64,000 nt of DNA from Phocaeicola dorei (GTDB lineage Bacteria > Bacteroidota > Bacteroidia > Bacteroidales > Bacteroidaceae), in assembly GCF_013009555.1 (NCBI RefSeq), contig NZ_CP046176.1:3131501-3195500 (forward strand), given 5' to 3'. Position numbers and translations under genes: made by a program. The notes under the pieces were generated by a model. That model was not told where the DNA came from, made no database searches, and worked only from the letters and a program-made list of their open reading frames with translations. Each line of letters starts with the position of its first letter. The first letter of the stretch is position 1. Positions 42,727-63,989 of this stretch are shown here, piece after piece.

Positions 42727-42728
42727 CT

Positions 42729-45557: not shown

Positions 45558-45580
45558 ATTCTTGCCCTGCTATAGTGTTA

Positions 45581-45862
45581 TTACCTATTTATTCCAGCTT
45601 GTAATATTTTGATGCCTAATGCATTTTCTATTTTGCACAAAGTTTCCAATGACAAATTCTCTCGGCCTTTCAACACTTTAGAAACATACTGCTGGGTGCA
45701 GTTCATTTTCTCAGCCAGCACTCGTTGTGTCATGCCAAGTTCTCCCATTCGGTTTGACATGATTGCTGCTATAGCCTGCGAATGGCAAACCCAATTTTCG
45801 CCTTTGCATTCCACTCTTTCCTCTTTTACTTCCAATGCGTTGTCTATCTTTTCTTCAGCCAT
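45581..45862 (-). CDS. XRE-family regulator of the type I RM operon
   Basis: A 93-residue protein from ATG 45862; ATG 45871 is also possible, and a longer frame to 45967 adds non-homologous sequence. The HTH is MGELGMTQRVLAEKMNCTQQ followed by YVSKVLKGRENLSLETLCKIE. It is the first gene of the hsdR-hsdS operon and probably a controller that delays or limits HsdR expression. Confidence 0.85.
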   Translation of the reverse strand: MAEEKIDNALEVKEERVECKGENWVCHSQAIAAIMSNRMGELGMTQRVLAEKMNCTQQYVSKVLKGRENLSLETLCKIENALGIKILQAGINR

Positions 45863-45997
45863 TGTATGCATCAAAAAATACCTTTGCCTTATTTTGTAGG
45901 CAAAGGTACTATAAATAATTGAGATGGCACAACCTTCAGGTTGTTGATTCATATTTTCTGATTGCATAATTTTAATTAAAAAGCTAATATCATGTGG

Positions 45998-46807
45998 TTA
46001 GCATAATTTATCTATAATTGTTTTTATATGTCTTGGCACTCTTCTTTCATCTTCTGCATCCAAATGAAATCCATGATATATATTTTCACTTTCACGCTTA
46101 AATTCTATGTATTGACTACACTGCTTGTCAAAATAATACAGCGTTTTCGGATCCTCACCTATTGCTTTATATAACAACCGCGTAGCTTCTTCTTTACAGC
46201 ACATCAATATTGATACTTTTTGACCATTATTACTTGGATGTGCACCTTTGCCATTTTCTCCATGCTTAGGATTAAGATTAAATATTCTTTGTGGTTTACG
46301 GTTTACCTCATACCATTTTGAAAGTAATTTTAAATCGAAGCTTCTTACATCAAGTTCTATTTCATTTTGATTACGTTTTGTACGTATAATCTCTGTAGAA
46401 CAAGCAAAAGCATTAAAATTAACCAATAGAAATGTACTTGCATCTACAGAAACATATTTCCGTTCCGTCATTTCACACAAAGTATCGTCTTTTATCGGTA
46501 AACAATAATACATATAGTCTTCTGTATCCTTTTGTACTTTTTGCATTCGCCAATTTTCTCCCCATTTATTCAACACTATACGCATACGGGTCATGATATT
46601 GGGATAGCAATCTTCTGCAATTCTTACAGGATACAGAAATGCATATACATTATCTGCATCATAATAGCCTTCATAATTTTCATTCGCTATAAAGCAGCAT
46701 ATTTCGTCTATATTTTTTACAACTTTCAAAATTTCATCCTCAGTCATGATACTTTTAGACTTAATATAATCTGGTTGCCCTACAGCTTCCTCATATTTTG
46801 GCAGCAA
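45998..46807 (-). CDS. Unknown third protein of the DUF262/AAA operon
   Basis: About 269 residues; start uncertain (TTG 46807, or ATG 46747, which gives 249 residues). The frame has no clear ATG after the AAA stop. I recognise no family. It is soluble, with a charged C-terminal half: FNLNPKHGENGKGAHPSNN, then KVSILMCCKEEATRLLYKAIGEDPKTLYYFDKQ, and a late YIEFKRES segment with an ExK-like pattern followed by YHGFHLD. These His, Asp and Glu residues could form a nuclease-like site, but this is speculation. Its place, 25 bases after the AAA ATPase, argues that it is the effector or partner of that pair. Confidence 0.55.
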   Translation of the reverse strand: MLPKYEEAVGQPDYIKSKSIMTEDEILKVVKNIDEICCFIANENYEGYYDADNVYAFLYPVRIAEDCYPNIMTRMRIVLNKWGENWRMQKVQKDTEDYMYYCLPIKDDTLCEMTERKYVSVDASTFLLVNFNAFACSTEIIRTKRNQNEIELDVRSFDLKLLSKWYEVNRKPQRIFNLNPKHGENGKGAHPSNNGQKVSILMCCKEEATRLLYKAIGEDPKTLYYFDKQCSQYIEFKRESENIYHGFHLDAEDERRVPRHIKTIIDKLC

Positions 46808-46832
46808 TAAAAAAAGTTCGCTGTGCTCTATA

Positions 46833-47966
46833 TCAAAATCCGGTTAAGGTCTTCAAATCAATATCTATCTGATCAAAAAATCCCTTAGGAGGACGAGTGA
46901 TACGTCCTGTTTCTGAAATCAGTAATTGATGTGACAAAGCTACATGCTCATGTTCTTCCCTTTCAAAATAGTATATGGATAGTAAATCAGGATTAATCCA
47001 CTTTTTGTTTACTGCCACCAAACTACCATTTATAATATGGTCACTATGCGATTCCATCACAATCTGTACTCCACAAGCTACAGCTTTTGAAACCAGTTCC
47101 ATCAATACAGCCTGTCCTTTCGGATGCAAATGCGCTTCCGGATTCTCAATAAGCACAATGGCATCTTTACCTGCACTTAATACGGCTATTAATATGGGTA
47201 ATACATAAGTGATTCCAAAACCAGTATTCAAGGCTGTAATATCTTCCGTAATAGTATTTTCTTCTCTACTAAATTTATATTTCAACTTAAAATCCTCTCC
47301 CACAGGCTCTATATTGATTTTTATATTAGGCGAAACAAGACGTAGCCAACGTTCTACCTGCACAGTAAGTCTATAGTCCGGAGTTATATCATCATCTTCG
47401 ATAATCGCAAGTTCTTTTATAGGGATGTTTGTATTTTTATACTGCTCAAGAAAATGTACTGCATATTCACATTGTCCCATGATTTTAGATATTTGTTTTT
47501 TAGTAACAACCAAAGAAGTATCACGGTTGTAGCTTTTTTGCGGACCAAAACGAAATGCACTCAAATACTGAAAATTCTCATTAAACAATGAATATTTCGA
47601 CAATACAGCTTTTGACGTCTCATTACTTTTAGCTCCTGGAAGCATCGTATCCATGATATTATCAGGATATTCAAATGAAAAATTCAAATCATCTTGTTCA
47701 ATAAACTTCATATTAATGTTCAACGAATGTTCCATTGAAGTCTGACAGGCTAATTCTCCAGACATTCCGGCATCACATAAATCGCCTTTTAGATTTAGGC
47801 CAGAATCTAGATCGTTCATCATAAAAGACTGTCGTAATAATATCAATGACTGTATGACAGTAGATTTTCCCATACCGTTCATACCAGTAAGAATTGTCAG
47901 TCCATTTAGCTTCAAATTTGTATGATTATGAAGCTTTAAATTATTTATGCTTAAATGAGTAATCAT
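46833..47966 (-). CDS. DUF3696-type AAA ATPase (OLD/SMC-like)
   Basis: A 377-residue ABC-like ATPase. Walker A is GMNGMGKST (residues 28-36), an ABC-signature-like region precedes AIVLIENPEAHLHP (Walker B near residue 272), and MESHSDHIINGSL is the switch His. The layout fits DUF3696 proteins, which often occur with DUF262 genes. Its start overlaps the DUF262 stop by 4 bases (ATGA), so the two are translated together. ATPases of this class drive several defence systems; here the partner nuclease is not obvious. Confidence 0.85.
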   Translation of the reverse strand: MITHLSINNLKLHNHTNLKLNGLTILTGMNGMGKSTVIQSLILLRQSFMMNDLDSGLNLKGDLCDAGMSGELACQTSMEHSLNINMKFIEQDDLNFSFEYPDNIMDTMLPGAKSNETSKAVLSKYSLFNENFQYLSAFRFGPQKSYNRDTSLVVTKKQISKIMGQCEYAVHFLEQYKNTNIPIKELAIIEDDDITPDYRLTVQVERWLRLVSPNIKINIEPVGEDFKLKYKFSREENTITEDITALNTGFGITYVLPILIAVLSAGKDAIVLIENPEAHLHPKGQAVLMELVSKAVACGVQIVMESHSDHIINGSLVAVNKKWINPDLLSIYYFEREEHEHVALSHQLLISETGRITRPPKGFFDQIDIDLKTLTGF

Positions 47967-49090
47967 AAATTTATTATTTCTTTTATTAACGATTTCACCA
48001 TCGTAAAACGTTGTTCCACATTATATTTCTGCCCTGTTCCGGTTGATATGGAGAAATTAAATTTGTCATCATTAAACAAACGAATCATTCCGTTTTTAAA
48101 TGCTCCTGCATTTTTCAATAACAGACTTTGTTCTTCATCACTCAACCAAGCTATGTTGACACTCAAGGTATCATATACTGATTTAGATATAGGCTTTCTT
48201 CTTTCGGAAACACTGTATCTTTTTCGAAATGTATCATCTTGAAATATCTGATAGCAACATTTCATTGATTTATCAAAAGCAATGCGTATGTCATCCCTTT
48301 GCGCACGAGTCATTTTATTCAGTTCTCCCATTTTATCATTTAGAAACATATCTAAATCACCAATATAATCCTGATAACCAATAAAAAACGCCACAAATCG
48401 GTTTACAAAATCTCGATCTTGCATTCGCTTTGTCTTTACAGAATAATTAGTAGCTTTTTTAAAAGACTCCATGTCTGCCAACTCTTTTAGAAATATCGCA
48501 GCAGGCCCCTGGTTCAAAGCATGGCGCATCTCTTGTGGTGTTAAAGGTTCTCCAGCAGTATTTACACGTTGGAATATTATATATTTTACATCTAATGGAG
48601 TTCCTTTACGCAATGTATTCATGGTAATTTTAAGCGATTTAATACGCTTAACTTCAGGACGTGCCAATTGAGAGAAAGTTACCCCTTCAAAATTTTTCAG
48701 GAACTGTAGCCCTTCCAATTTCAGTGGTTCATCCTTCTTTAATACAAAATCCCTTATTGCACAAATCCGCTGCAATCCATCTATAATAGAAAGCTTTTGA
48801 CTTACAGGATCTTCGCTAAAATAAAAAGATGGCAAAGGAAGTCCCAGCAAAATAGATTCTATCAGCCTACTCTTTTTTATGTTATTCCACACATCTGCTG
48901 CACGCTGAAAATCAGGCTGCAAATCTATCTCATCATTTTCCAATTGTTCTATTAGTGAACCCAAATTAACCGTGGATATATCCACATCAATTTCGTTCGG
49001 ATTAAACGGTTTGGTTATTGCTTCCGAAGAATTATCACCATCAAGATTCTCTTCTTCCACTGCAACTTCCTTGTTATCGATATCCACCAT
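47963..49090 (-). CDS. DUF262-domain protein (ParB/GmrS-like)
   Basis: A 375-residue protein with a DUF262 domain: DLQPDFQRAADVWN (FQR at 61-63) and SIIDGLQRICAI (DGxQR at 104-108), followed by FQRVNTAGEPLTPQEMRHAL. The fold is related to ParB/Srx NTPases and to the nucleotide-binding half of GmrSD, but the DUF1524 HNH half is absent, so it is not a full GmrSD enzyme. First gene of a three-gene operon with the DUF3696 ATPase and the unknown protein. Confidence 0.88.
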   Translation of the reverse strand: MVDIDNKEVAVEEENLDGDNSSEAITKPFNPNEIDVDISTVNLGSLIEQLENDEIDLQPDFQRAADVWNNIKKSRLIESILLGLPLPSFYFSEDPVSQKLSIIDGLQRICAIRDFVLKKDEPLKLEGLQFLKNFEGVTFSQLARPEVKRIKSLKITMNTLRKGTPLDVKYIIFQRVNTAGEPLTPQEMRHALNQGPAAIFLKELADMESFKKATNYSVKTKRMQDRDFVNRFVAFFIGYQDYIGDLDMFLNDKMGELNKMTRAQRDDIRIAFDKSMKCCYQIFQDDTFRKRYSVSERRKPISKSVYDTLSVNIAWLSDEEQSLLLKNAGAFKNGMIRLFNDDKFNFSISTGTGQKYNVEQRFTMVKSLIKEIINL

Positions 49091-49157
49091 AGTTATAAAT
49101 TATTTAATTTTACAAAAAAATCCAATATCAGCTCATTTAACCTCAATTATTTAATTG

Positions 49158-50534
49158 CTATTTAGTCAGATTAATAATATCTTCTGGTAACAATATAACA
49201 CCCCCAATATCATCTTTCGGAGCATTCTTAAGAAACAGCATTGGAACGATGGTATAGTTCTTGGCAAACGGTAGCAGATTAGCTTTGCGGAGAAGTTCGG
49301 CTGTTAGTTGTTTACCATTCTCCCCTGTTGTCCATTTACATTCACCAACCAGCAGATACTTTTTATCAAGCGATTCGGCCATTACATCAAATTCGACTTG
49401 TTCAGGTTTCTTATCCTCATTGAGGACAGAACCCCACCAGCGTTTTGCCTTACCATAAACTACACCATTGACAAGATTACCTGTAACAGCATCTCTGCAC
49501 AGTTTTTCCCATTGCATACTCACATACTCAGAGAAATGGGCATTCAAAGCCTGTTCAATGGGTAAGCTACGACCAAGTTCAATGAACGAGCGATTCGGAA
49601 CAACAAACTGATAGTAGAATGCCATAAAAGGATCGGCTATCTTATAAAGACTCTTTTTCGCATTCTTTTCATCAATCCCGAATGGAACATCTTTTTCCAA
49701 GAATCCGAGATCGATAAGTTTCTTTAATGGTCGTGACAGATTGGTTGCCGGTTCATTGCATCGTCCAGCAATCTCAGAAAGACGATTTGCACCTGTACCG
49801 ATATAAGACATTATTGTCGAGGTCTTGACAATATCCTTAACATCATCTTGAAACAGCTTTATAGGTTCTTCGTAAAGAGTGCCATTTACTGACAGGATAT
49901 TATGCCACAATGCGTCATCAAGCGAATTTCTGTTTTCCCTTAGTTCCCAATAACGCGGCACACCTCCCCATACGGAATACTCTTCAATGGCATTCATCGC
50001 ATCAAGACTCAAAGCCTCCTGAATATACGGCAAACGTATCGGTGATAGCCTCATTATCTCATCAGCACGACCATAGAGAGGTGCAGTAGAATCAAGAAAC
50101 AACCCATACATCATGTTTTGTGACGAGCCACAAAGCACAAGATTATACTTCAGTTGTTTCTCGTCAACCAGTTTCTGCAAAACAGACGACAGTTCCGGAG
50201 ATTGTTCCACAAGATATGGAAATTCATCCAAACATAGAGTAAAACGCTTGTCTGTTCGATAATTGACCGCACGAAACATAGATTCCCAGTCTGGATATGT
50301 CAACTTATCGAAATCTGGAAACACTTGTGCTATCACTTTTGCGAGCAATGTTCTCTGATGTTGGCCTTCAGAACGATCAGCGAGAAAATAAACATCATTG
50401 TCCGACAACACTCTTTTGATAAGTGTTGACTTACCTAATCGTCTACGACCATACATGACGACTAACGAGGACTTCTCTCTCGCAAGAGCATCCTTCAAAC
50501 GTGCCGCTTCATCTATTCTATCAACGAATTTCAT
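49158..50534 (-). CDS. Archaeal-type AAA ATPase with DUF234 nuclease-like tail
   Basis: A 458-residue STAND-like ATPase. Walker A GRRRLGKST (residues 29-37), Walker B CLDEFPYL near 105, a winged-helix region (ANRLSEIAGRCNEPATNLSRPL) and a DUF234 C-terminus with FDVMAESLDKKYLLVGECKWT (D-x(n)-E-x-K) are present. Such proteins are common in Bacteroidales in many copies and are suspected defence or mobile-element functions. The gene has 70-bp and 120-bp gaps on its two sides, so it looks like a single unit. Confidence 0.88.
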   Translation of the reverse strand: MKFVDRIDEAARLKDALAREKSSLVVMYGRRRLGKSTLIKRVLSDNDVYFLADRSEGQHQRTLLAKVIAQVFPDFDKLTYPDWESMFRAVNYRTDKRFTLCLDEFPYLVEQSPELSSVLQKLVDEKQLKYNLVLCGSSQNMMYGLFLDSTAPLYGRADEIMRLSPIRLPYIQEALSLDAMNAIEEYSVWGGVPRYWELRENRNSLDDALWHNILSVNGTLYEEPIKLFQDDVKDIVKTSTIMSYIGTGANRLSEIAGRCNEPATNLSRPLKKLIDLGFLEKDVPFGIDEKNAKKSLYKIADPFMAFYYQFVVPNRSFIELGRSLPIEQALNAHFSEYVSMQWEKLCRDAVTGNLVNGVVYGKAKRWWGSVLNEDKKPEQVEFDVMAESLDKKYLLVGECKWTTGENGKQLTAELLRKANLLPFAKNYTIVPMLFLKNAPKDDIGGVILLPEDIINLTK

Positions 50535-50653
50535 ACGCTATACTTATTATGCATTGCAAACATAATGATTTTAAAGCATAATACAAAATTTCAAGTTTTG
50601 TTTTTTTTCCTCATAAAAACATTTTTAACTTACTTATAAGGAGAATATAAACT

Positions 50654-50983
50654 TTATCCCTTTTTTGAAGCTCGTTTCCTTGTCTTCAAACTCAAATCTT
50701 GTAACGCTTTCCCCAATTTATCTTCTTTGGCTAACCACAGAATATCATCGTCAAGCTGTAAAGCATACAGAACACGCAAGTAAATACCGATTGCCACAGT
50801 CGGTGCGCCTTTCTCTATTCGGGATACGGTCAACGGAGAACAGGTGGCACGTTCAGCCACTTGAGCCACACTCAAATCTCTGCGTAAGCGAGCCAACTTA
50901 ATCTGTTCTCCCACAACCGACATCTTCTGCTCCAATTTTCGGGGTAATTTAGTCCCCATCGTATTCTTTGCCATATTCAACAC
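50654..50983 (-). CDS. Orphan HipB-like XRE regulator
   Basis: A 109-residue protein with an HTH (ARLRRDLSVAQVAERATCSP then LTVSRIEKGAPTVAIGIYLR) and a basic tail (KTRKRASKKG). It resembles HipB antitoxins, but there is no hipA next to it; the gene is flanked by 119-bp and 117-bp gaps. It may be the regulator left after loss of hipA, or may serve the nearby ATPase or HEPN operon. Three ATGs compete as start; the first is used. Confidence 0.75.
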   Translation of the reverse strand: MLNMAKNTMGTKLPRKLEQKMSVVGEQIKLARLRRDLSVAQVAERATCSPLTVSRIEKGAPTVAIGIYLRVLYALQLDDDILWLAKEDKLGKALQDLSLKTRKRASKKG

Positions 50984-51100
50984 ATCATATAATATGCCAA
51001 AATAACACTTTATATTTATTTAATGATACATTACAGGCAAATATAGCGAATCCATAAAATCAGAAACATGTACATCCCTAAATAATTTTCCCCAATAGGG

Positions 51101-52651
51101 TTAAGCATAATACTGTTTAAAAATTTCCTCCATCTGGTCAAGCGTCTTATTGAACGATATCCTCAGTTCAGCTGGACATTTGGGATTTTTCAGAAGTTGT
51201 CTTAATCTTTTAATCTGGGCTTTCATCATGATATTGCTCGCTTTCGTGGTCTTATCCACTTTTATTGCGAACTCACCCATTAGGGTTCTTAAGAACTTTC
51301 GGATTCTACCCATAATCTTTATAAACGCTGGATAAGCATTTATTTCTATCAGCAAATCAATTCCTTCAATACTTTCTAATATGCGAAATATATTACTGTC
51401 GTTGGTATCTCTGTCCAAATAGTGCACGTACAATGCCCTCCGTTTCACATCCTCCTGCTTTAAGAGACGTTCTAATTCCATTCGGATTTCTGATGCTTCA
51501 GTTTTCAACTTTTCAGCATCCGCAGGAACAGCATTCTGTATGAATGTCCAAAGCGCATTGTCCTTTTCTGTATCATTATATCCGACAAGATGGCCAAGCG
51601 TTGAAACCTTTGATACAAGTAATCGACGAAAGGTCAAGGGGTATTCTATATCACTTCCCGCATTCATAAAAGCCCTTATGACACAAGACATATCAGCAAA
51701 AGACATTTCTATAAGGAGATAAACATTCATTAGGTCTTTCATGTCCTTTATTGTCTTTGGCTTGTCTTGGTTGGATGCGTTCTTGCCCAACCAGTCTTCC
51801 AGCCGTCCTAGTTTATCCTTTTCTTTAGCGGTCCAATCAACGCTATCAATGTCTTTAAGTATCTTATCGAGTATTTCCTTAAATTGATCATTTTTTGAAA
51901 ATTCATAAACTATTCGTTTGTAGAAATCTAGTTTGATGACATTGATTTGAAAATAATGAAAACCTGTCGCTTTAGAAGATACATTTCCCTGTAAGGCCTC
52001 CACGTATTCAATAGTATCACATAATACCTGTATCGAAAGCAGTGCATCCATCCACGGAATTACGCACTTCATTGCTTCATCTTCGCCTTTATTTTTTACC
52101 TTTATAAGTTGTTTATACACTTTATAGAGGTCATCATCATAATGGTAAGTAATATTCCGACCTTTACGTTCTTCATAGGTTGTCATCACTGTTCTCAATT
52201 GCGTTGACACCTTATCATAAAGAGCTACTACCCCTTCATATACCTGAGCATACTTACTCCTTTCGAATCTTTGGTATACTTGTCTAAGTTCACATCCAAG
52301 CTCCGTCCACACAGATCGCTCTCTTTCTTCACCATAGCCTAATAGCAAACGGTATCCCTCCACCCTAATACCTTCAAGGTTCTTGATATGATAACATTTC
52401 TCAAATGTGTATGCCCCATTCAAACTGCCCCTTAAACTAGTCATCAGGTCTATCAATATAAACCTCATGTTCATCCGCAGTTCTACAGCCAGTCTTAGCA
52501 ATTGCGGTACATCTGCATTTAGTTCCTTCAAGAGCGAGAGATCTTCTAATACCTTCTTGTACAAATCCTCGATGGTCTTTGAGGAATTGCCTATCAGGTT
52601 CTCTATAGTCTCTTTTGAAGCCTCCTTGTATATAACTTTTGTCTCTGTCAT
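51101..52651 (-). CDS. Large HEPN-motif protein C of the triple-HEPN operon
   Basis: A 516-residue protein of no recognised family. ATG 52651 overlaps the stop of protein B by 4 bases (ATGA), so it is preferred to the longer frame from 52720. Residues about 155-185 read RTVMTTYEERKGRNITYHYD: Arg165 and His170 form R-x4-H, followed by DDDLYKVYKQL, a pattern typical of HEPN families (RNxxxHYDxD). The rest is helical. HEPN proteins with R-x4-6-H are usually metal-independent RNases. It is the last gene of the operon. No signal peptide or membrane helix is seen. Confidence 0.7.
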   Translation of the reverse strand: MTETKVIYKEASKETIENLIGNSSKTIEDLYKKVLEDLSLLKELNADVPQLLRLAVELRMNMRFILIDLMTSLRGSLNGAYTFEKCYHIKNLEGIRVEGYRLLLGYGEERERSVWTELGCELRQVYQRFERSKYAQVYEGVVALYDKVSTQLRTVMTTYEERKGRNITYHYDDDLYKVYKQLIKVKNKGEDEAMKCVIPWMDALLSIQVLCDTIEYVEALQGNVSSKATGFHYFQINVIKLDFYKRIVYEFSKNDQFKEILDKILKDIDSVDWTAKEKDKLGRLEDWLGKNASNQDKPKTIKDMKDLMNVYLLIEMSFADMSCVIRAFMNAGSDIEYPLTFRRLLVSKVSTLGHLVGYNDTEKDNALWTFIQNAVPADAEKLKTEASEIRMELERLLKQEDVKRRALYVHYLDRDTNDSNIFRILESIEGIDLLIEINAYPAFIKIMGRIRKFLRTLMGEFAIKVDKTTKASNIMMKAQIKRLRQLLKNPKCPAELRISFNKTLDQMEEIFKQYYA

Positions 52652-53925
52652 TTTGCTTTCTCTACTATCTTTCTTGCAAGTAACGTCGTTTCTATTAGAT
52701 GTAATATTAGTACATGACAAAGTCTACATATCGACATCAAAGTCGTTTCATATATCTTGCTGTCATTTGTAGCATCGTAATGGCAATCTATGTGTTGTGT
52801 TATAGGATCGTAATCAACGCCTCCACTATGGCTAGCTGCATTCCTGATTTTATTGTTCATTGAACCGTCCATATAACCCATAAAAGCACCATTCCCTTCA
52901 AGAACTTCTATCATTTTTCCTGCTGCTTTTCCGGCAAACTTTGTAATAGTATCGACATCGCTTAGCCCAGAATTGGTAAATACATCTATATTTCTGTTTT
53001 CTCGAAGATTGTTCAATCCTACAAGTATCTTTAAGCCATGAGCAAATACCTCATAACCTTCTTTGTACATACCCATAGCATCATCACAACCTATAGTGAC
53101 AATCTTCAAATCACCATTCCCGGCCACATCTTTAATGCCTGCACTTGCATATATCATGGCAGGTAAAATTTTTTGTATGTCGTCAATAGACTTAGCTACA
53201 AAAGGCAATGCCTCATCTTTATACCATTTTGAAATCAATCCGCTAGCATCCAGTTTAACCTTGATATCCTGCACCTCATCTACAGTTAATTTATTGATAA
53301 GGTCTTCCAGCGGTTTAATAAACCTTGCATGACAGTCATCCAGATAGCGTTGTGGAGCAATGTTTAGATATACGCCTTTCAGCAGTTCAAAGTAGGAATC
53401 ATACATTTCCAGAGCACTGCCAAGGGGCTTGTATTTCTTCTCATCGAACAATATAGCCATCTTCTTACTAAACGCTTCCACATTCCCCTTCTTCAAGATA
53501 GGCAATAATGCGTTCAGCATTCCTCTATAGGGTAAAAACCTATACTGCATCTTTGTTAAGAACACATCATAGTTATGAACCTCTTCTAATGAAAAAAAAG
53601 AACTTTTAAACGATAAACTCAAAAACAACGATGAAAGTGCCATGGACTGTGTAAAGTCTAAGTCTTTCATATACAAGTCGTCAATAATTGGCAAGGACGA
53701 AGAATAACCAATAGTTGTTATTGGCGGGTCTTGTGGTGAAGGCATGTACATAAATTCCTTTGGGAAAAGGCCTCGCCTCCCATATTTATAAGTAAGATTA
53801 TCTCCACAATCCACGCACTCAAAACTGATGGGCCATTCATAAATTTTTATGTTCTGGTCTAACTGAAACTTCAACTGATATATTTTCCCGCAACTGGGGC
53901 ATTTTACATATATGCGCTGTACCAT
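52648..53925 (-). CDS. Zinc-ribbon plus HEPN-motif protein B of the triple-HEPN operon
   Basis: A 425-residue protein. The N-terminus has a zinc ribbon: Cys9, Cys12 (KCPSCGKIY) and Cys37, Cys40 (FECVDCGDNL). The middle is helical without known motif. Near the C-terminus NNKIRNAASHSGGVDYDPIT gives Arg361 and His366, the R-x4-H RNase signature of HEPN domains, followed by the TQxI stretch often seen after it. A zinc ribbon plus HEPN suggests nucleic-acid recognition coupled to RNA cleavage. Gap to protein A is 10 bases; the stop overlaps protein C by 4 bases. Confidence 0.72.
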   Translation of the reverse strand: MVQRIYVKCPSCGKIYQLKFQLDQNIKIYEWPISFECVDCGDNLTYKYGRRGLFPKEFMYMPSPQDPPITTIGYSSSLPIIDDLYMKDLDFTQSMALSSLFLSLSFKSSFFSLEEVHNYDVFLTKMQYRFLPYRGMLNALLPILKKGNVEAFSKKMAILFDEKKYKPLGSALEMYDSYFELLKGVYLNIAPQRYLDDCHARFIKPLEDLINKLTVDEVQDIKVKLDASGLISKWYKDEALPFVAKSIDDIQKILPAMIYASAGIKDVAGNGDLKIVTIGCDDAMGMYKEGYEVFAHGLKILVGLNNLRENRNIDVFTNSGLSDVDTITKFAGKAAGKMIEVLEGNGAFMGYMDGSMNNKIRNAASHSGGVDYDPITQHIDCHYDATNDSKIYETTLMSICRLCHVLILHLIETTLLARKIVEKAK

Positions 53926-53935
53926 AGATTCCCTT

Positions 53936-54931
53936 TCATTTACCGTTTTTAATCATCAGTTTCATTCTTTCTTGCATAGTTTCAGCAGCCGCCAAGATGT
54001 TTGCCAGCGAGCAAATCTCCCCTAACTTTTGCCACTCACAAAACTGATGAATCAACGTCCACAAGTAGACATAGCTAAATGTCAACAAATAGTATGAAAA
54101 AGCATAGGTATTTAACGTCGCCATATCGCTCTTAAAAGGAGAAAAATAGTCCCCATGAAAACGTTCACACCTATACGTATAAAGTACACAACTCAACATA
54201 AATAATAGCCGTTTCTCTAGGTCAACCATATATTCATTGTTGTTCACCGTCACTTTTTCTCCTCTCAATATCTTCTGGAGCAAAAGCGAAGACCGTCTCA
54301 ACACGTCTGCGTCAGGCTTCACCGTTTCCTCAAGTTTATACTTGGCTTTGATATCAGCATACAACTCTTTCGTTAAGATGTCTTTCGCCCTTTCCGAAAC
54401 TTTTTCTGCCTTGTCTGTAATAGCTAAATCATGTTGGGTAAAGCAGCGCATAATTGCAAATCTTAATACAGAAATGGGTATTTCACTTAAAAATCTCTCC
54501 CACATTTCTTTTACCCGCAGATCTTTATTAACAAGAGGCATGATCAACTCTTTTACTGTTCTCAGCATTAGATGAGTTGCCTTATCGTTATCTTTCGGCC
54601 ATGCTATGCTCCTATGATGATTCATAAATATCTCCAGCGAACGCCATGCGATATTGAATCCTTCATCTGGTCTGTAAGGTAATTCGTCATAGATATCAAC
54701 GATACCCGAAAACACCTTGTTCAGTTTCGCATTGGGAAACAGGATATCTTTTGCCCCTTCTGATAGCTTCACAGGTTCAAAGATTTGTGTTATCCCTTGC
54801 TCATGAAGCCACTCGTCTAACATCTGCTGCACATCACTATACCACTGTCCTGCTTTGGGCCACATATTGTTATAGGCAATACGTTTTTCTGTCCAAAGCA
54901 ATTCTCGCTTATCTTTTTCTGTTATAACCAT
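53936..54931 (-). CDS. HEPN-motif protein A of the triple-HEPN operon
   Basis: A 331-residue protein of no recognised family. ATG 54931 is chosen because it lies 2 bases after the stop of the 51-codon ORF; the longer frame to 54985 overlaps that ORF and starts with TTG. The C-terminal part reads SCVLYTYRCERFHGDYFSPF: Arg254 and His259 give R-x4-H, and the surrounding Y-x2-R-x4-H-G pattern closely matches HEPN proteins that read yqvRNnlFHG. It is helical throughout. It is the first of three consecutive HEPN-motif genes. Confidence 0.72.
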   Translation of the reverse strand: MVITEKDKRELLWTEKRIAYNNMWPKAGQWYSDVQQMLDEWLHEQGITQIFEPVKLSEGAKDILFPNAKLNKVFSGIVDIYDELPYRPDEGFNIAWRSLEIFMNHHRSIAWPKDNDKATHLMLRTVKELIMPLVNKDLRVKEMWERFLSEIPISVLRFAIMRCFTQHDLAITDKAEKVSERAKDILTKELYADIKAKYKLEETVKPDADVLRRSSLLLQKILRGEKVTVNNNEYMVDLEKRLLFMLSCVLYTYRCERFHGDYFSPFKSDMATLNTYAFSYYLLTFSYVYLWTLIHQFCEWQKLGEICSLANILAAAETMQERMKLMIKNGK

Positions 54932-54933
54932 TT

Positions 54934-55089
54934 TTATATGCCGTAAAGTTCTCTTAATGTTTTTGCTTTCCATGTCTGTGCCCAAAAGTTGTTGTTCACG
55001 ACATCATAGAATTTAATTTCATCTCCATACCGTCTACAAACAAAACCGTATTTATATATTCCGAAAAGGATGTCGAATAGGCTATACAT
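54934..55089 (-). CDS. 51-residue ORF at the head of the triple-HEPN operon
   Basis: A short frame from ATG 55089 that ends 2 bases before the start of protein A. The product (MYSLFDILFGIYKYGFVCRR and 31 further residues, ending TLRELYGI) is rich in aromatic and basic residues and looks like a compact folded peptide. It could be an antitoxin, a leader, or a chance frame. The near-zero spacing to the next gene supports translation. Confidence 0.5.
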   Translation of the reverse strand: MYSLFDILFGIYKYGFVCRRYGDEIKFYDVVNNNFWAQTWKAKTLRELYGI

Positions 55090-55109
55090 GACCCACTAAT
55101 ACTTTGCAT

Positions 55110-55253
55110 TCACAAATCAAACGAAGATATATAGAAGCCCATATTGAGCCATTCTGTTGAATACTCAAATGCGCATAATTCCTCTTTGGTCAACGACAGA
55201 CAACCGACCAAACAATTACCATAAATAACTTCTATCTGTTTTATGCTATTCAT
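55110..55253 (-). pseudogene. hipA: Truncated hipA: N-terminal fragment only
   Basis: A 47-residue frame (IEVIYGNCLVGCLSLTKEEL then FEYSTEWLNMGFYIS) matches the start of HipA kinases, which run to about 310-440 residues. It stops right after the first strand-helix unit, and no kinase sequence follows in any frame. The start overlaps hipB by 8 bases, the usual coupling. The break lies 21 bases from the first ORF of the HEPN operon, so it probably marks the insertion or recombination point of that cassette. Confidence 0.65.
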
Positions 55254-55563
55254 TTTTCTTTCCTCTTTTACGGGTAACGCCTTGTTCTTTCAGTACATCA
55301 TCCAATGATTGATATTGTCTTTGCGCAAAAAGAGCATCAAAGTCAGAGAGTGCATTCAAAGCAAATGCTATCTGAAGTAATCCTCTCAATGAAACTTCTC
55401 CAGTCTGCTCAAATCTGCGATATGTGGCAAACTTGACCCCGGCTCTTGTAGCCAAACCCTCTTGTGTCAAATCAAGTTTAAGTCGCCTTGCTTTAACCCT
55501 TGATGCTATCTGTAAAGCTACCTCATTTGGATTATCAATATTAAACGCTAATATATTATTCAT
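55246..55563 (-). CDS. hipB: HipB-like XRE antitoxin/regulator
   Basis: A 105-residue protein from ATG 55563; the longer frame to 55605 would begin inside the promoter box. The HTH is LDLTQEGLATRAGVKFATYR followed by RFEQTGEVSLRGLLQIAFAL. The tail GVTRKRGKKNE is basic. In an intact HipBA module it would bind DNA and hold HipA; here HipA is truncated. Confidence 0.8.
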   Translation of the reverse strand: MNNILAFNIDNPNEVALQIASRVKARRLKLDLTQEGLATRAGVKFATYRRFEQTGEVSLRGLLQIAFALNALSDFDALFAQRQYQSLDDVLKEQGVTRKRGKKNE

Positions 55564-55594
55564 ATTGTCATAACAACTAAAATATTGTTCATTG

Positions 55595-55602
55595 CAAAGA
55601 TA
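55595..55602 (-). promoter_or_regulatory. -7 promoter box of hipB
   Basis: TATCTTTG on the minus strand fits TAnnTTTG and lies 32 bases before ATG 55563. It may also drive the HEPN operon downstream. Confidence 0.6.
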
Positions 55603-55605
55603 CAT

Positions 55606-56174
55606 ATAAATCCTTATTCACTCATTATACCAAAGAAAAACAACTTTACTTTATCCCCGTATTCGTATATACGCACATTAAAGTAAAGCTAAAAAAGGGA
55701 AGAAAAGAAATGGCTCCGGCAAAGCCGAACTATACTTGCAGACTTTCTCTTTTGGCTGCAATAACAAGCTAAAATATCCGTGAACCCATCTACGATTTTA
55801 CAGCCATAATCGGCGAAATAATCACCGATATGCCTTATCTTTGTGGACCGGGGATTGCAAGGGCTAAAAGGGCGATTTCCCTCTTTTTTCCTCCGTTTGA
55901 AGACAAACTAAGGTTAAAAACGTTAAATCTTCAATTTTCGGCGAAAAAACAAGTAAATTTTCGAGCCTTCTATCTTTTAAGCCATAAATTACTGGTAATC
56001 AACTAATCTAATATGCTGCATCGAACTTGTCATTCAGGAACTTATATAAGAATACCTGTGTTATTATCTTATACTCGTTCCCATCATTACCCATACCGTA
56101 TGATTGACATGTTGCCTTTAGGGCATCAATTAACTGAAGTGTCTTTTCTTTTATTGCTAGCATATATGTTCTTT
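55606..56174. other. 570-bp spacer between hipB and the second hsdR
   Basis: AT-rich non-coding DNA. It contains the cruciform at 55644-55688 and several short A/T runs. A 69-codon plus-strand frame (56013-56222) overlaps the hsdR end and has no protein character. No RNA gene is recognised. Confidence 0.5.
55644..55688. repeat. Nested inverted repeat (cruciform)
   Basis: CTTTACTTTA (55644-55653) is perfectly inverted at 55679-55688, and CGTAT / ATACG forms an inner stem. The outer arm resembles the arm of the inverted repeat in the mob region (17500-17542), which suggests a transfer or att relic. Confidence 0.6.
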
Positions 56175-59100
56175 TTAAACTCTGCCATAAGTGGCATTAT
56201 ATTGATTAATATATTGTTGTGAAATTCTGGATTGGATGAATTTATAATCCTCCATCTCAGGCTTTATCTCCGGATACTGATAAAGGCAGCCATTTATAAG
56301 AGCCATTACTGTTCTGTTAAAGTAGGCATCCTTCTTAAGTATATCATTTCTATCGTATACTTTTGCATCGATATCGTTTTTTATAGTACTGAGTATCGAC
56401 ACAAGTTCTTCATCCTGTTGAGAAAAGATTGGTTTCAATCCCTTCTTTTCCCTTTCCTTATTTTCCTCTCTTATTCTTTTGTGTACTCTGGCAAACTTTT
56501 CATCTCCCTTATATTTCTTCATCAGCACTGCATTGCGCTTCTGGAGATCCTGCAGACGCTTAATAATTTCATCAAGAGCTTTTGTTTCTTCATTGAACTT
56601 TGCTATAGTCTCAACTACAAAGCCGTGTTCTTTGAATCTTTCCATAAAAGCCTCCCTCAGAGTAATGTATTCAGGGTCATCCTGGTCTATGTTCTGGGTG
56701 AAGTTGCTGATAGTCTTATTCCACTTCTCTTTAAGCTCTGCCCCTCCACCTATGACTTTCATTTCCTCCTGTCCTATCTTTGAAAAATTGAACTCAATGT
56801 TCATCATAGCCTCATTTATCATCCTCTTTGTCTCGTCCTCATTGCTAAAGGCTTCTTTCTGGTTTATGATGTCAATTCTGTGCTGAACCTCACTTAACAG
56901 TTGTGGCAACTTGGTTATCTCAATCTTAGCAAACTTCTCCTTCATATCTTCGTCACCGAATGTACGGACAAGGTTTGCCATATTCTTGGCTGCTACCAGT
57001 GCCTGTTTTAGTTCAAGAAGAACAGACTTGTCTTCTTCTGTTGATATCTCATTCGAGAACTCTTCTGCATTGTCATAAGAATAATTGAAAAGTGTTTGTT
57101 TTACCTGTTTCATTTGGTTGATAATCTCTTCCTTATCCTCAATTACCTGAGTAAATGTATCAGTGGCATTGCCTTCCCCTATTTCTTCTACATCGTTAAA
57201 GCGGTTAAGTTCTTTAAGATAGGCTTCATTTGTTTCCTCAAAGTTCTTCTTTATATCGGCAAAATCAATTACATAGCCATATCTCATGTCTTTATAAGGA
57301 CGGTTCACTCGTGTTATGGCCTGCAACAGATTATGATCCTTAAGTTTTCTGCCAAAATACAAGCGCTTCAATCTGGGCGCATCAAATCCCGTCAGCAACA
57401 TATTGAACACAATTAATACATCTATGCTCATGTTCTTCTTAAACTCCTTGACTATCTGCTTCCTCGTCTCCTTATCGTCTGTATCATGAAGGATGAGACC
57501 TGCTTTAAGTGGTCTATATTTGCTATGATATGTCAAGACTGGTTCTGCAGCCAACAGTGTTCCATCAGGCATTCTAAACATCTGAGCTTTAGGATGATGC
57601 TTTTCCCACTCCTCCTGAAATACCTCATACAGACGTTTTGCTTGTTCACTCGTTTCACAGATGACCATTCCTCCTAAAGTATCATCTCCTTGAATTTTCC
57701 TGAATCTCTTCAAGTCATCCATAATGTAATTGGCCAACTCCTTAACATAATTAGGATGCTCTATGATATCCGCTTTCTTTATATCTTTTTTTTGAACCAA
57801 TGTGTCAAGTTTGTCATAAACATCAGACAATCTTTCCTTATAGGATGTTTCAATATCTTCCCTTATTATCTTTAGCGTATATCCGTCTGCTATTGACTTA
57901 TCGTAATAGTAGGTGTGAAAGTACTCACCATTTCCGAAGACTCTGCATGACGCCCTTTCTTCCTTTAGCAAAGGTGTACCGGTCAATGCTATTTTTATAG
58001 CATCCGGGTCTGCTTCAAACAAGTTGGCCAGGAAACATCCTCCCGGCTTATATCCTCTATGTGCTTCATCCAGTATGAATATTCGCTGCAGGTTTGTAGC
58101 ATAATCATTAAACTTGACCTTTTCTTTGTCTTCTGAAAATCTCTGGATATTTACTACTGTTATTTCAGCCTGTCCGCTTGCTCCATGCTGTGCCTGGTTG
58201 CTCCTGAAATGTTCCATCAGTTCAGCCCTCGAGTTGGCTGTACTTACTACAAGAGCTCTTGCCTCAAACTCCTGGCTTGCCTGTTCCAATAAATCAAGTC
58301 TATCAACTATAAAATACAGCTTGGCCACCTTGTGTTGCTTTGCAAAGTAGTCATTGAGAATATAGGTGAGATAAAATGACAAAGCTGTTTTTCCACTGCC
58401 CTGGGTATGCCATACCACACCTGAGCGCATCCCTTCCGACAGCTTCTTTTTAATCGCCAGTGATGCAAACAGCTGCTGATAACGCATAATATGCTTCTGG
58501 TCTGTAGATTCTATTTTACCATCCACTTCCCTTTCCATCTTCACGTATGCAATACCGTATCTAATGATGTAAAGCAATCGCTCCGGTGAACACATTGAAG
58601 TCAATATCCTGTTTGTCGGTGTATTTATATCAAGATTTGTCTGATATTCAGGACTTGTATGGATTACCTGACAGTTATAGTCAGAGAGAATACGCTTCTC
58701 TTCCTCTTTATCAATTTCCTTATATGGATAATCTCTATGGTAAGGTGCTATCTTCTGTGACCCTATATTTTCTTCCCTGAAACAGTTGAAGGGGGAATAA
58801 GAACGGGCACCAGTACAATAGAATGCTCCTTGTATAGGTACTATACCACCCATAGCATCATATTCCATATTGTTGCTGAATATCATCAGCTGGGTTATAT
58901 TTATGAATCTACGGAATTTCTTGTTTGGGAATCGTTCCTTGTTCATTCTGTTGCTTTCCGCTACCATTCCGCCATGGTTGTTTGGCTTCTTTACCTCTAT
59001 GAAGCAAAGAGGGAGTCCGTTAATGAACAAAGTTATATCCGGTCTGAATTCATCCTGACCGTTTTTGCAAGTAAACTCGGCAGTAAAATGAAAAGTATTG

Positions 59101-59411
59101 TTTCCTATATCCTCAAAATCTATGAGTTTTACAGGTGATACATTCTTTAATCTTTGATAGAACCCTCTACCCAGATCGTCGTCATTCAATTCTTTTCTTA
59201 TATCTTTGAGTACCTGCAGAAACTCTCCTTCATGTGAAGGATTAAGTTTCTTGAACTGCTCTTCAAACACAGGCAAAAGGATATTTGTGTCACCATCATA
59301 TACGGTGCCACTCATATCTTCATATATCTTCCCAAAATACGTATATCCTAATCGGGTAAGATGTACCATAGCCGGCATCTGTACCCTTGTTGCTTCCGAA
59401 AACTGTTTCAT
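56175..59411 (-). CDS. hsdR: Second type I restriction endonuclease subunit HsdR, without HsdM/HsdS
   Basis: A 1078-residue protein of a different HsdR branch from the one at 42729. The nuclease site is Asp125 with E139-x-K141 (PDITLFINGLPLCFIEVKKP), Walker A is HTQGSGKT, the DEAH-type box is FILDEAHRGY, and motif VI is QAITRVNRPY. The C-terminal 250 residues are coiled and helical. No hsdM or hsdS gene lies within the remaining window, so its partner is missing, in trans, or it works alone. It is 9 bases after the GIY-YIG gene. Confidence 0.93.
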   Translation of the reverse strand: MKQFSEATRVQMPAMVHLTRLGYTYFGKIYEDMSGTVYDGDTNILLPVFEEQFKKLNPSHEGEFLQVLKDIRKELNDDDLGRGFYQRLKNVSPVKLIDFEDIGNNTFHFTAEFTCKNGQDEFRPDITLFINGLPLCFIEVKKPNNHGGMVAESNRMNKERFPNKKFRRFINITQLMIFSNNMEYDAMGGIVPIQGAFYCTGARSYSPFNCFREENIGSQKIAPYHRDYPYKEIDKEEEKRILSDYNCQVIHTSPEYQTNLDINTPTNRILTSMCSPERLLYIIRYGIAYVKMEREVDGKIESTDQKHIMRYQQLFASLAIKKKLSEGMRSGVVWHTQGSGKTALSFYLTYILNDYFAKQHKVAKLYFIVDRLDLLEQASQEFEARALVVSTANSRAELMEHFRSNQAQHGASGQAEITVVNIQRFSEDKEKVKFNDYATNLQRIFILDEAHRGYKPGGCFLANLFEADPDAIKIALTGTPLLKEERASCRVFGNGEYFHTYYYDKSIADGYTLKIIREDIETSYKERLSDVYDKLDTLVQKKDIKKADIIEHPNYVKELANYIMDDLKRFRKIQGDDTLGGMVICETSEQAKRLYEVFQEEWEKHHPKAQMFRMPDGTLLAAEPVLTYHSKYRPLKAGLILHDTDDKETRKQIVKEFKKNMSIDVLIVFNMLLTGFDAPRLKRLYFGRKLKDHNLLQAITRVNRPYKDMRYGYVIDFADIKKNFEETNEAYLKELNRFNDVEEIGEGNATDTFTQVIEDKEEIINQMKQVKQTLFNYSYDNAEEFSNEISTEEDKSVLLELKQALVAAKNMANLVRTFGDEDMKEKFAKIEITKLPQLLSEVQHRIDIINQKEAFSNEDETKRMINEAMMNIEFNFSKIGQEEMKVIGGGAELKEKWNKTISNFTQNIDQDDPEYITLREAFMERFKEHGFVVETIAKFNEETKALDEIIKRLQDLQKRNAVLMKKYKGDEKFARVHKRIREENKEREKKGLKPIFSQQDEELVSILSTIKNDIDAKVYDRNDILKKDAYFNRTVMALINGCLYQYPEIKPEMEDYKFIQSRISQQYINQYNATYGRV

Positions 59412-59420
59412 AATTCTTTC

Positions 59421-59927
59421 TTAATCTTTGACACATCTGAAAGACCTGGCTCCATTGGCTACAGGTATGGAACCATATCTGTCATAGAATGATTCTATTA
59501 TACTTGATTCTAAGTCTTTTGATTCCTGATACCCTCGACATGTATAGTAGTAAACCTTTGCTCCATGATAACGCATATAATTATATCTGTCCAAATGCCA
59601 GCATTCATTAAATCTGTCATTTATGGCATTTATCAGATTCCTTTGATGCTCTTTAAGCCTTCTCTGTATATTGTCCGTTTTTCCTATATAGATTACTTTA
59701 GATTGTCCTATAGGATATATAAACTTTGTCTTAAATGAAACTATTATATAGACTCCTGGTTTTGACGGTAAATCAGTCAAATCATCATCCTCCAAATTGT
59801 CAATCTGTTTATCATAACCATAAACAGGCCTGAAATCCTTTATAAACATCAGTTCTCTTTTCATTGCTTTGTTGATATTAACCCACTGATAATACTGCAC
59901 CGATAGTCTGCAATTGTAAAATTCCAT
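59421..59927 (-). CDS. GIY-YIG nuclease-family protein
   Basis: A 168-residue protein with a GIY-YIG domain: GVYIIVSF for the GIY strand, VIYIGKTDNIQRRLKEHQRN with the catalytic Arg, and a Glu in DLESSIIESFYDRYG. GIY-YIG enzymes are DNA endonucleases. It is encoded between a small XRE gene (3 bases) and hsdR (9 bases), an unusual partner for a type I R subunit. Confidence 0.88.
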   Translation of the reverse strand: MEFYNCRLSVQYYQWVNINKAMKRELMFIKDFRPVYGYDKQIDNLEDDDLTDLPSKPGVYIIVSFKTKFIYPIGQSKVIYIGKTDNIQRRLKEHQRNLINAINDRFNECWHLDRYNYMRYHGAKVYYYTCRGYQESKDLESSIIESFYDRYGSIPVANGARSFRCVKD

Positions 59928-59930
59928 ATT

Positions 59931-60128
59931 TCAGTTCAGTACTATCAGTTCTTCTAATTTAACTTCAAGCAATTCCGATATTCTCTTTAGTGTCTGCAAA
60001 TTGGGCTGTGTCTTGTTTGTACACCATTTAGACACTGTTGTAGGATTGACCTCCAACTGTTCTGCGAGCCACTTGCTGGTTCTTTTTTTCTTTACCAACA
60101 CTATTTTAAGTTGATTCAATTCTTCCAT
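59931..60128 (-). CDS. Short XRE-family regulator
   Basis: A 65-residue protein that is almost only an HTH_3 domain (RTSKWLAEQLEVNPTTVSKW, then NKTQPNLQTLKRISELLEVK). It is the first gene of the XRE/GIY-YIG/hsdR operon and probably represses or times it. The ATG is clean. Confidence 0.88.
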   Translation of the reverse strand: MEELNQLKIVLVKKKRTSKWLAEQLEVNPTTVSKWCTNKTQPNLQTLKRISELLEVKLEELIVLN

Positions 60129-60224
60129 TTATCTATAACATTAGCTTGACGCACAAAGATAATGATTTATAGGCTAATTTCATGACTATTGAGCTATTTC
60201 GCCTATTTTTTATTTTTATATCCT

Positions 60225-61163
60225 TTATTCCACCTTCCCAAACTCCAGGTATCTCCCCCTGAACCTCTCATAAACCTGAGCATAATACTCCGGCAGGTAC
60301 TGTATCATCGCATCCACAAAGTCCTCCAAAGTAACAGCACTCAACTTATAAGCATATTCCGGCTTCAGGTACTCTGTAACCGAGCTGATTTCCTCTTCTG
60401 TTGACGGATGCTCCTTTGGCGAAAGCACTACTGAATACGAATCCTTCAGTCCTTCAACCATCCTGTACCGCTCTGTAAGCAAAAGGTTTCTGTAAATCTG
60501 CGTAAGTTTTACTTTACCTCCCATCAGCAGCTCCTCAAAGTCCGCACTGAACAGACCGGTATCAATAAGCATCTGCTTCTGCTCCTCACAACGGCTGGCC
60601 TCGTTCACTCCGAGCACATCCGTATATTTCGTCTCGATGGCGATGATATGCTTGCCACCCTTGTTATCCACGAATCGGATATACGCATCCATTGCAGACT
60701 TGTCGTTCGTGTAGTTCTCAATCGGTGTAGGAATAAACTCCAAACCGATTTCTGTCACCTCAAATACCGGGTAGTTCCTGAAGACTGACCTCACGGCAAG
60801 CGTAACCATTGCCGGATCCTGCTTCAACAGTAACATCAGGGGATGGAACAGGTTGAATGCCATCGGCTAGCTCGAAAGCAGGTTGTTGAACAGTCTGAAC
60901 CCGTCTATCGTCTCATTTTCCCTTTTGTTGCCCACTCTTTCCTTGGCATACTCGAAAGTCTCCTTCATCAAGAAGTTCTTTCCGGACACTTCACCACCAC
61001 TGATCATGTTCCCGTATTTTCGCTTGGAGGCTCTTGTTGGCCCCACTCCTTCCTCTTCGCCTATCTCCACCCTGTACATGGACTGGAGCAGTCTTGCTTT
61101 CCTGGTGAAAGCATTGTCGCTTCCACACTGGTTTCCGTATATATTGTCTTCTATATCTTTCAT
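60225..61163 (-). pseudogene. PGN_0703-family putative restriction endonuclease, interrupted by one TAG
   Basis: Two frames in the same phase: 61163-60870 (MKDIEDNIYGNQCGSDNAFT ... FRLFNNLLSS) and 60863-60225 (MAFNLFHPLMLLLKQDPAMV ...). The only interruption is TAG at 60867-60869, where the family has Gln (CAG), so one C-to-T change accounts for it. Together they give about 311 residues, the family length. The C-terminal half keeps the likely nuclease site: MDAYIRFVD followed by HIIAIETKYTD (D and ExK). Stop-codon readthrough or translation restart at ATG 60863 could still give some product. Confidence 0.85.
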
Positions 61164-61221
61164 AAATTATTGACAAATCTATATGTATTCTTAGTTGTAT
61201 CAATATTATAATTCTAATTAT

Positions 61222-62223
61222 CTAATAATTAATCAATTCACTACAGTCATAAAAAGCTTCCTTTGATATTCCTGTATTTACGCATACATATTCTACGTGC
61301 ATATAACCATTAGTATCTATTGTTATTTTTGTCTTAAACTTTACCTCACCCGCTTTCATTTGAGGTAAATTATCTAATCCTATCTTTACTAATGATTTAT
61401 TATTGTGCGCATTTTCAGAGTTACCAAACAATACTTCACATAGTGCTCTACTCTGATTGTGATAAGCTGTACACGTATTTACAGTATTTGTAAAAGGGAG
61501 TTCTTGTCCTTGTTTTATGACATTTAGCATTTTATTACAAATACCATTTATGCGACAACTCTTCCCAATATTCATTTTTAAAGTTGGATTATGTCTCTTT
61601 ACTTGTGTAACCACAGTAGCTAATTTATTTACAGCAATATTCTTCCTCGATTCATTGATAATATTAATTGCATCAGAATTAATTATATTGTTTTCTTTCA
61701 TACACATATATTCTTCTACTATATTATCATATTCTTTTATAAGAATATCAGCTTCTATGTCTGATATGTTCATCTGACTATACTCTTTTACTTCTGTCAA
61801 TTGATTCCATAAATCAGTAAAATATTTAGTATAGTCTTCACATACATTTCCTTCGTCGGTGATTATGATATTTTCTGCATTTCTATTTTCTGCAGAGTAA
61901 GTCCAATTATACGAACCTGTTATAAGAATACTCCCATCAAAAATGCAAAATTTATTATGCATTAGAATATTGCGTTTATTCACGAAACATAATTTTCCTC
62001 CCTTTTGCAGATATAATGAAAAATCAAGTCCATAATCACCACAATTTATTATATCTTTTATGAGAATAAGAGAGATATTTACTCCTCGTTCCAAAGCATT
62101 AATGATTGCATCAAATAAATCATGTTGAGTGAACCATGCCACTGCGATTATTATATCTTTATTTGAGTTATTAATTTCTTCTATTATTTTCTTCCGTATT
62201 TGATTAAAGTATGCTTGTATCAT
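61222..62223 (-). CDS. Phospholipase D-like nuclease
   Basis: A 333-residue protein with one PLD domain in residues about 1-150: IIIAVAWFTQHDLFDAIINA, then the HKD motif as His89, Lys91 and Asp96 (MHNKFCIFDGSILITGSYNW). Single-HKD enzymes such as Nuc and BfiI work as dimers and cut DNA without metal. The C-terminal half (residues 150-333) is of unknown fold and may bind DNA or a substrate. It is the last gene of the defence island, after the broken PGN_0703 gene. Confidence 0.85.
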   Translation of the reverse strand: MIQAYFNQIRKKIIEEINNSNKDIIIAVAWFTQHDLFDAIINALERGVNISLILIKDIINCGDYGLDFSLYLQKGGKLCFVNKRNILMHNKFCIFDGSILITGSYNWTYSAENRNAENIIITDEGNVCEDYTKYFTDLWNQLTEVKEYSQMNISDIEADILIKEYDNIVEEYMCMKENNIINSDAINIINESRKNIAVNKLATVVTQVKRHNPTLKMNIGKSCRINGICNKMLNVIKQGQELPFTNTVNTCTAYHNQSRALCEVLFGNSENAHNNKSLVKIGLDNLPQMKAGEVKFKTKITIDTNGYMHVEYVCVNTGISKEAFYDCSELINY

Positions 62224-62290
62224 AATATCAAACTTAATTTTATGATTTTAAAACAATCTATTAATAATCACTTTTTAACCAATCGTACTA

Positions 62291-63914: not shown

Positions 63915-63922
63915 TACTTTTG
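63915..63922 (+). promoter_or_regulatory. -7 promoter box of the gene at the window edge
   Basis: TACTTTTG fits TAnnTTTG, 68 bases before the ATG at 63990. Confidence 0.45.
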
Positions 63923-63989
63923 AGATACATCTTTTGTTTTTCACTATTAATGCCCAGCACAATAGTAATAATTTATAACAATATACATC

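Follow-up and report, generated by a model that had tools for sequence, protein, structure and literature searches.

What is the function of three adjacent genes in Phocaeicola dorei whose products each bear an R-x4-H motif like that of HEPN ribonucleases (RNases)? The genes, here called A, B and C, lie in the window, the whole 64,000-nt stretch of NZ_CP046176.1 that was analysed, with positions counted from its first letter. A preliminary description of this DNA had reported three consecutive minus-strand genes with a 10-base gap and an ATGA overlap, and its gene lengths agree with ours:

53936-54931, minus strand: gene A, 331 amino acids, predicted HEPN-type protein with the motif R254-C-E-R-F-H259-G-D
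52648-53925, minus strand: gene B, 425 amino acids, N-terminal zinc ribbon and C-terminal R361-N-A-A-S-H366
51101-52651, minus strand: gene C, 516 amino acids, tandem HEPN-like protein with R165/H170 and R405/H410

A and B are spaced by 10 bases, B and C overlap by 4 bases (ATGA), and all three genes are complete with every conserved residue present. A-B-C is a real and conserved operon, not described in the sources used, and is a putative HEPN-based defence with a variable effector gene.

Conservation of the R-x4-H sites

Two points make the bare motif weak evidence for HEPN. The window contains 38 stop-to-stop frames that reach 250 residues, A, B and C included; R-x4-6-H occurs in 31 of these, R-x4-H in 17 and RN-x3-H in 5, and the motif was dropped as evidence in its bare form. 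Permutation within each family gave chances of 0.11 (A), 0.08 (B) and 0.04 (C) for conserved R and H at the observed spacing, values that are not strong alone. Since the motif is so common in frames of the window, conservation is the test.

Conservation was counted over all protein-search hits (64 for A, 93 for B and 69 for C, with the window's own proteins, P0065 and P0158, among those of B and C), the denominators being the homologues with a residue at the site. Alignments A1, A2 and A3 hold 38 of 64, 42 of 93 and 38 of 69 hits picked by eye, plus the window protein in each. R254 of A was kept in 58/59 homologues and H259 in 59/59. R361 and N362 of B were each kept in 89/89, and H366 in 90/90. 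For C, R165, N166 and H170 were each found in 64/64, R405 in 61/62 and H410 in 62/62. The deviating rows were P0051 (F in place of R254), P0219 (L in place of R405), and P0155 and P0157, with two zinc cysteines replaced in each; judging from the other Pfam domains that they carry, P0155 and P0219 may be chimeric. R and H were also retained in relatives at 20-34% identity. Because the second site of C is retained, the operon carries four conserved R-x4-H sites in total.

Three observations raise the motif above chance: its conservation across all hits, the second, homologous site of C and the fold matches found for A. The motifs R254CERFH259, R361NAASH366 and R165NITYH170 are present as first described, and the conservation of R and H, on which that proposal had been made to depend, is near-invariant in homologues of A, B and C. 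The proposal that three adjacent genes of a defence island encode HEPN-type proteins with conserved R and H residues is supported.

Protein C has two homologous sites

C is built as a tandem: where a single site had been noted before, it has two, R165/H170 and R405/H410, which are homologous and predicted to be of HEPN type. In a profile comparison of residues 45-235 with residues 255-516, R165/H170 aligned onto R405/H410 (probability 85.6, E 5.6e-6, score 44.3; best of 100 column shuffles 23.5, reversed 10.8). In a C relative of genome G135 (L030), the halves aligned directly with both motifs in register, at 30% identity over 142 columns (59.8 bits, E 4.6e-16; best of 100 shuffles 23.5 bits). 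BLAST of half against half was not significant for C of the window (E 0.15) or for the relative in L029 (E 0.061), so that for these two proteins it takes profiles and relatives to reveal the duplication. The residue after the second R is A, G, T, N or Q; a polar residue is not general at this site.

The structure model of C had a pLDDT (predicted local distance difference test) of 82.4 overall and below 50 at residues 166-173. Foldseek with this model returned nothing from PDB and BFVD at E <= 0.001, which does not exclude an unlisted HEPN match, and VIA-align returned chiefly G-protein-coupled receptor and rhodopsin bundles. Values from hhalign for homology among the HEPN regions of A, B and C reached at most 1.9% except between the halves of C, and were too weak to use. 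In L029 (3786-7163), the C relative adjoins two genes that resemble an AbiEii/AbiEi pair by eye.

Protein A has a HEPN-like helical layout

In the model of A (pLDDT 91.4), R254-H259 closes helix 238-258, and helix 273-300 comes next. The invariant E100 lies within helix 88-110, and a large insert separates this helix from helix 238-258. In the excerpts available from PMC3710099, the HEPN layout has the motif at the end of helix 3, an acidic residue in helix 2 and an insert between helices 2 and 3. By our own numbering of the modelled helices, A appears to have the layout expected of the superfamily. R254 is followed by C (by N in L011), at a position where N, D or H is usual in the superfamily according to the same excerpts (PMC3710099).

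The best PDB fold matches of the A model were AbiV and Csm6, with nothing in the Foldseek search of PDB at E <= 0.001; a PDB sequence search with the profiles of A, B and C gave no credible match. Another R-x4-H of A, R162/H167, was rejected as a candidate site. It is common to some relatives (L002, L008) yet not conserved: H167 lies outside the invariant or near-invariant columns, and the motif is absent in L003, L009 and L011.

Protein B combines a zinc ribbon with an RN-x3-H motif

The zinc ribbon at the start of B, matched below threshold, is the sole recognisable piece among the three proteins. Nothing was above cut-off for A, B or C in Pfam or NCBIfam; in PADLOC, B and C had no match at E <= 1 and A had one weak match (PtuA, E 0.049). 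The ribbon cysteines C9, C12, C37 and C40 were retained in 85/85, 84/84, 84/86 and 84/86 homologues, which bears out the CxxC...CxxC ribbon of the preliminary description. The ribbon is the natural candidate for a recognition part.

B is a putative HEPN protein by motif only. R361, N362 and H366 recur in the 24-26% identical B relatives of L004 and L009, and residues 310-387 of the L004 relative, spanning its RNAIGH, matched the HEPN family PF18736 at E 0.005, below cut-off. L004 is a 3.6-kb contig of Fusibacter; the B family extends beyond Bacteroidota, there with a predicted extra zinc site. This B-like protein (L004:1091-2464) ends in a SEC-C motif (PF02810, E 3.5e-9).

The last gene of the operon varies

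A scan of named genomes yielded three relatives of B, in L002, L003 and the L004 contig. A Bacteroidia metagenome-assembled genome (MAG; L002) has the order D-A-B-C, in which D is a fourth gene considered below. In a Prevotellaceae MAG (L003), the order is hipB-hipA-D-A-B, followed 19 bases on by a gene for a 380-amino-acid protein with a match to Mrr_cat_2 (E 7e-4, 19.9 bits) below the cut-off of 22; C was not found within 17.9 kb of L003 sequence. Locus L009 (genome G289) has B-A-E with a 4-base overlap and a 9-base gap, and L008 (G362) has a 365-amino-acid gene, AbiH and then A-E with a 4-base overlap. In both loci, E is PADLOC PDC-S56 (E 4.5e-162 in L008 and 1.6e-154 in L009), and RN-x3-H is invariant in 5/5 E sequences. 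Comparison of E by hhalign with B (6% over 22 columns) and with A and C (below 1%) was too weak to use. The L008 segment 9332-11408, upstream of A and PDC-S56, holds the AbiH gene (Pfam E 3e-27) and, preceding it, the 365-amino-acid protein, which has no family.

In L011 (G678; 4057-7875 and 107-1276), A and a Cas13b gene accompanied by a CRISPR array are convergent. The Cas13b gene (PADLOC E 1.3e-115) and the array (18 repeats of ~36 nt, spacing 65-66) were not used as a link to A; this is a single case with no sign of co-transcription and may be chance.

The last gene is thus C, PDC-S56 or an Mrr-like nuclease. B was absent by profile from the genomes of L008 and L011, while the same search found it in the genome of L009; it is missing at 2/5 related A loci. 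The three-gene set first described recurs within D-A-B-C of L002, but its last gene varies and B is not constant.

Effector genes also occur apart from A. PDC-S56 was matched in 6/201 genomes of the family, three strongly and three partially (E 2e-5 to 9e-4), and C in 3/206 genomes, namely the window's own, G253 and G135. In the three strong PDC-S56 genomes and the two other C genomes, where the open reading frames around the C or E genes were read, the A profile found nothing (0/5), and B was absent by profile from G253 and G135. Genes of the C and E types can therefore occur where A is missing, and A is found paired with C or with E.

Identical sizes of the longest contig served as a proxy for linkage in metagenomes. 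Such pairs numbered 10 for A-B, 8 for B-C and 5 for A-C, against means of 0.36, 0.33 and 0.20 and maxima of 3, 2 and 2 in 200 shift controls; three sizes were shared by all of A, B and C, and the proxy is indirect. One A-B pair, of 2177 bases, must be chance, being too short for both genes. The genes are rare: with overlapping draws that include the window's own genome, A was found in 3/399 genomes of the family, 2/393 of the order and 1/296 of the phylum, and B in 1/100 relatives and 1/393 of the order. Viral contigs yielded no confirmed relative of A, B or C; none was found in phage records queried with B, or in plasmid records queried with the operon DNA, A, C, and A and B of L009.

A truncated fourth gene and the surrounding island

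Full-length D lies upstream of A in L002 and L003 and matches the PADLOC profile PD-T4-7 (E 2.3e-47 and 7.9e-46). There is no full-length PD-T4-7 match in the window, only a remnant beside hip fragments:

54937-55056, minus strand: 3' remnant of gene D, last 36-40 codons of a PD-T4-7 homologue
55113-55253, minus strand: hipA-like start of 47 codons, with a stop preceding the D remnant
55246-55605, minus strand: HipB-like helix-turn-helix (HTH) gene preceding the hipA-like stump
50654-50983, minus strand: second HipB-like HTH gene, downstream of C, with no hipA after it

The remnant corresponds to the last 36-40 residues of D (residues ~262-302), with 72% identity to D of L002 (E 5e-14), and the window's genome has no other match to D at E <= 0.001. 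The operon had been drawn as reaching to 55089; this range covers A-B-C, but 54937-55056 belongs to the further, otherwise missing gene. According to open reading frame lists, D was not seen upstream of A in L008 and L009, so it is not essential to the family.

The hipA-like start (Couple_hipA, E 0.0015, 19.5 bits, below the Pfam cut-off of 22.5) stops just ahead of the D tail. Because the order in L003 is hipB-hipA-D-A-B, the arrangement suggests a deletion running from hipA into D, with a possible scar at 54937-55253. Two findings speak against a simple deletion of the L003 type: the window's counterpart of L003 hipB is the HTH gene that lies downstream of C (55% identity) rather than the one upstream of A, and neither hipA of L003 nor hipA of L021 has a match in the window at E <= 0.5. 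The upstream stump thus need not derive from an L003-type order.

These fragments raise the question of whether the window locus is a decaying remnant, in which A-B-C no longer works although the family is functional. The reduction of D to 36-40 codons, with no other copy in the genome, and the hipA-like stump adjoining its tail would fit decay, but none of A, B and C is truncated or lacks a conserved residue, and D is not universal. Loss of function here is unlikely in our judgement, though far from negligible.

The operon is flanked by two HipB-like genes, neither adjoined by a full-length hipA; the upstream one is a possible source of transcription for A-B-C. Promoter and terminator counts fell inside the spread of shuffles, and Rfam gave nothing at gathering thresholds across 44000-64000. 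As first described, A-B-C sits in a defence island. Around it are a type I restriction-modification locus (38010-45557), NsnC/B/A (45998-49090), PDC-S27 (49158-50534) and a second HsdR-type gene (56175-59411). The PADLOC candidates PDC-S05 (39185-40231) and PDC-S18 (41803-42738) lie between genes of the restriction-modification locus, and at the island edge (60225-62223) a PDDEXK_13/REase-ARP protein (212 amino acids) lies near a PLD-like protein (333 amino acids).

Proposed mode of action

We propose that A-B-C is a multi-HEPN anti-phage operon in which A and B form a partner module controlling the nuclease encoded by the last gene, a reading for which we see an even chance. Its support comes from the operon and its conservation, the tandem duplication in C, the HEPN-like fold matches of A, the differing last genes and the defence island. 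A and the zinc-ribbon protein B would form a complex, and C, with its two fused HEPN units, would hold a composite RNase site in a single chain. Upon infection, the zinc ribbon of B, or another part of A or B, may register the phage or its nucleic acid; C, perhaps with A and B, would then cleave RNA, and growth of the infected cell would be arrested in an abortive defence. A and B, each with an intact site, could pair together or gate C. HEPN domains are typically dimeric RNases, as stated in the accessible part of PMC13092281. In relatives, A, with or without B, would be paired with another effector, either PDC-S56, also with R-x4-H, or the Mrr-like nuclease.

A broader and more tentative version, somewhat short of an even chance, is a previously undescribed modular immune chassis known so far mainly from Bacteroidia. 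A, often with the zinc-ribbon HEPN protein B, would serve as sensor or activator for interchangeable nucleases (C and PDC-S56, which also live alone, or the Mrr-like one), sometimes with a PD-T4-7-like fourth gene, and mixed HEPN heterodimers of A, B and effector would build or gate active sites.

A and B could instead be non-catalytic HEPN proteins that bind RNA, with only the last gene cutting. Some HEPN domains are probably RNA binders (PMC3710099, in the portion available), and the last gene is the variable part, once resembling a restriction endonuclease (the Mrr_cat_2 match below cut-off). R and H are nevertheless near-invariant in A and B, with P0051 the one A homologue lacking R254, whereas the HEPN domains proposed as RNA binders lack the motif, as far as the available text of PMC3710099 goes. 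We regard this explanation as doubtful.

A toxin-antitoxin-like arrangement appears rather improbable. C (or PDC-S56) would be a toxic RNase restrained by A and/or B through HEPN heterodimers, and infection would free C. The overlapping genes and the neighbouring hipB/hipA-like remnants would suit it, and the family of D, PD-T4-7, was called toxin-antitoxin-like by its discoverers (PMC9519451, available in part). But C- and E-like genes occur in five genomes with no match to the A profile, the C-like ones also without B; C and E can thus do without A/B as an antitoxin. A and B, moreover, retain intact R/H sites themselves.

That B has a zinc ribbon but no HEPN domain, its R-x4-H being coincidental, is very unlikely: no HEPN family is named among the Pfam families of 43 aligned members and the spacing permutation gave just 0.08, but R361, N362 and H366 are kept in every homologue covering them and in the L004 and L009 relatives, and the PF18736 match of the former, although below cut-off, covers its RNAIGH.

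Under the proposed multi-HEPN reading, three different HEPN-type genes with four conserved sites raise the question of whether HEPN proteins gate each other via mixed dimers. Should true exchange of the last gene be borne out, even for a nuclease of the restriction type, separate parts would do the sensing and the killing, and the sensor could be identified by swapping effectors. Three protein families named in none of the libraries used would gain a function, and relatives of PD-T4-7 and PDC-S56 would be placed in larger assemblies.

Comparison with known systems

MNT-HEPN toxin-antitoxin systems differ in that no nucleotidyltransferase is among the families of A, B, C and seven scanned neighbours. 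No McrB-type GTPase is among these proteins either, which sets A-B-C apart from CoCoNuT type IV restriction, whose paper (PMC11090510), as far as available, contains the terms HEPN, zinc ribbon and two HEPN domains.

PDC-S56 is a PADLOC candidate whose S label we take to mean a single-gene candidate; its name was not found in the open-access literature covered. E of L008 and L009 matches it strongly, but there E overlaps or closely follows A.

PD-T4-7 is an Escherichia coli abortive infection (Abi) system, reported in the accessible part of PMC9519451 as toxin-antitoxin-like with an Abi outcome. Gene D of L002 and L003 matches its profile; there, however, D precedes A, B and the last gene, and A, B and C have no PD-T4-7 match.

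Like Cas13 and other two-HEPN effectors, C has two R-x4-H sites in one chain, which in Cas13 form a composite RNase. C has 516 amino acids, however, and A, B and C have no Cas or Cas13 match in PADLOC at E <= 1.

The preliminary description knew of no system with three such genes adjacent, and none was found in the libraries and literature covered: open-access titles and abstract starts to August 2026 described no such operon, the supplements and figures of DefensePredictor lying outside this scope. The part of DefensePredictor available reports four validated HEPN systems.

A-B-C also resembles HEPN RNases such as AbiV and Csm6, and PMC3710099, in its available part, covers these and others. 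A-B-C shares with them R-x4-H, the N after R in B and in the first site of C, the invariant E of A in an earlier helix with the motif at a helix end, and the PDB matches to AbiV and Csm6. It differs in that no family of Pfam or NCBIfam scores above cut-off and that PADLOC offers nothing convincing. HEPN RNases are mostly familiar as products of single genes, as dimers or as proteins with two domains; A-B-C places three different HEPN-type genes in one operon, the last of them a tandem with both sites kept.

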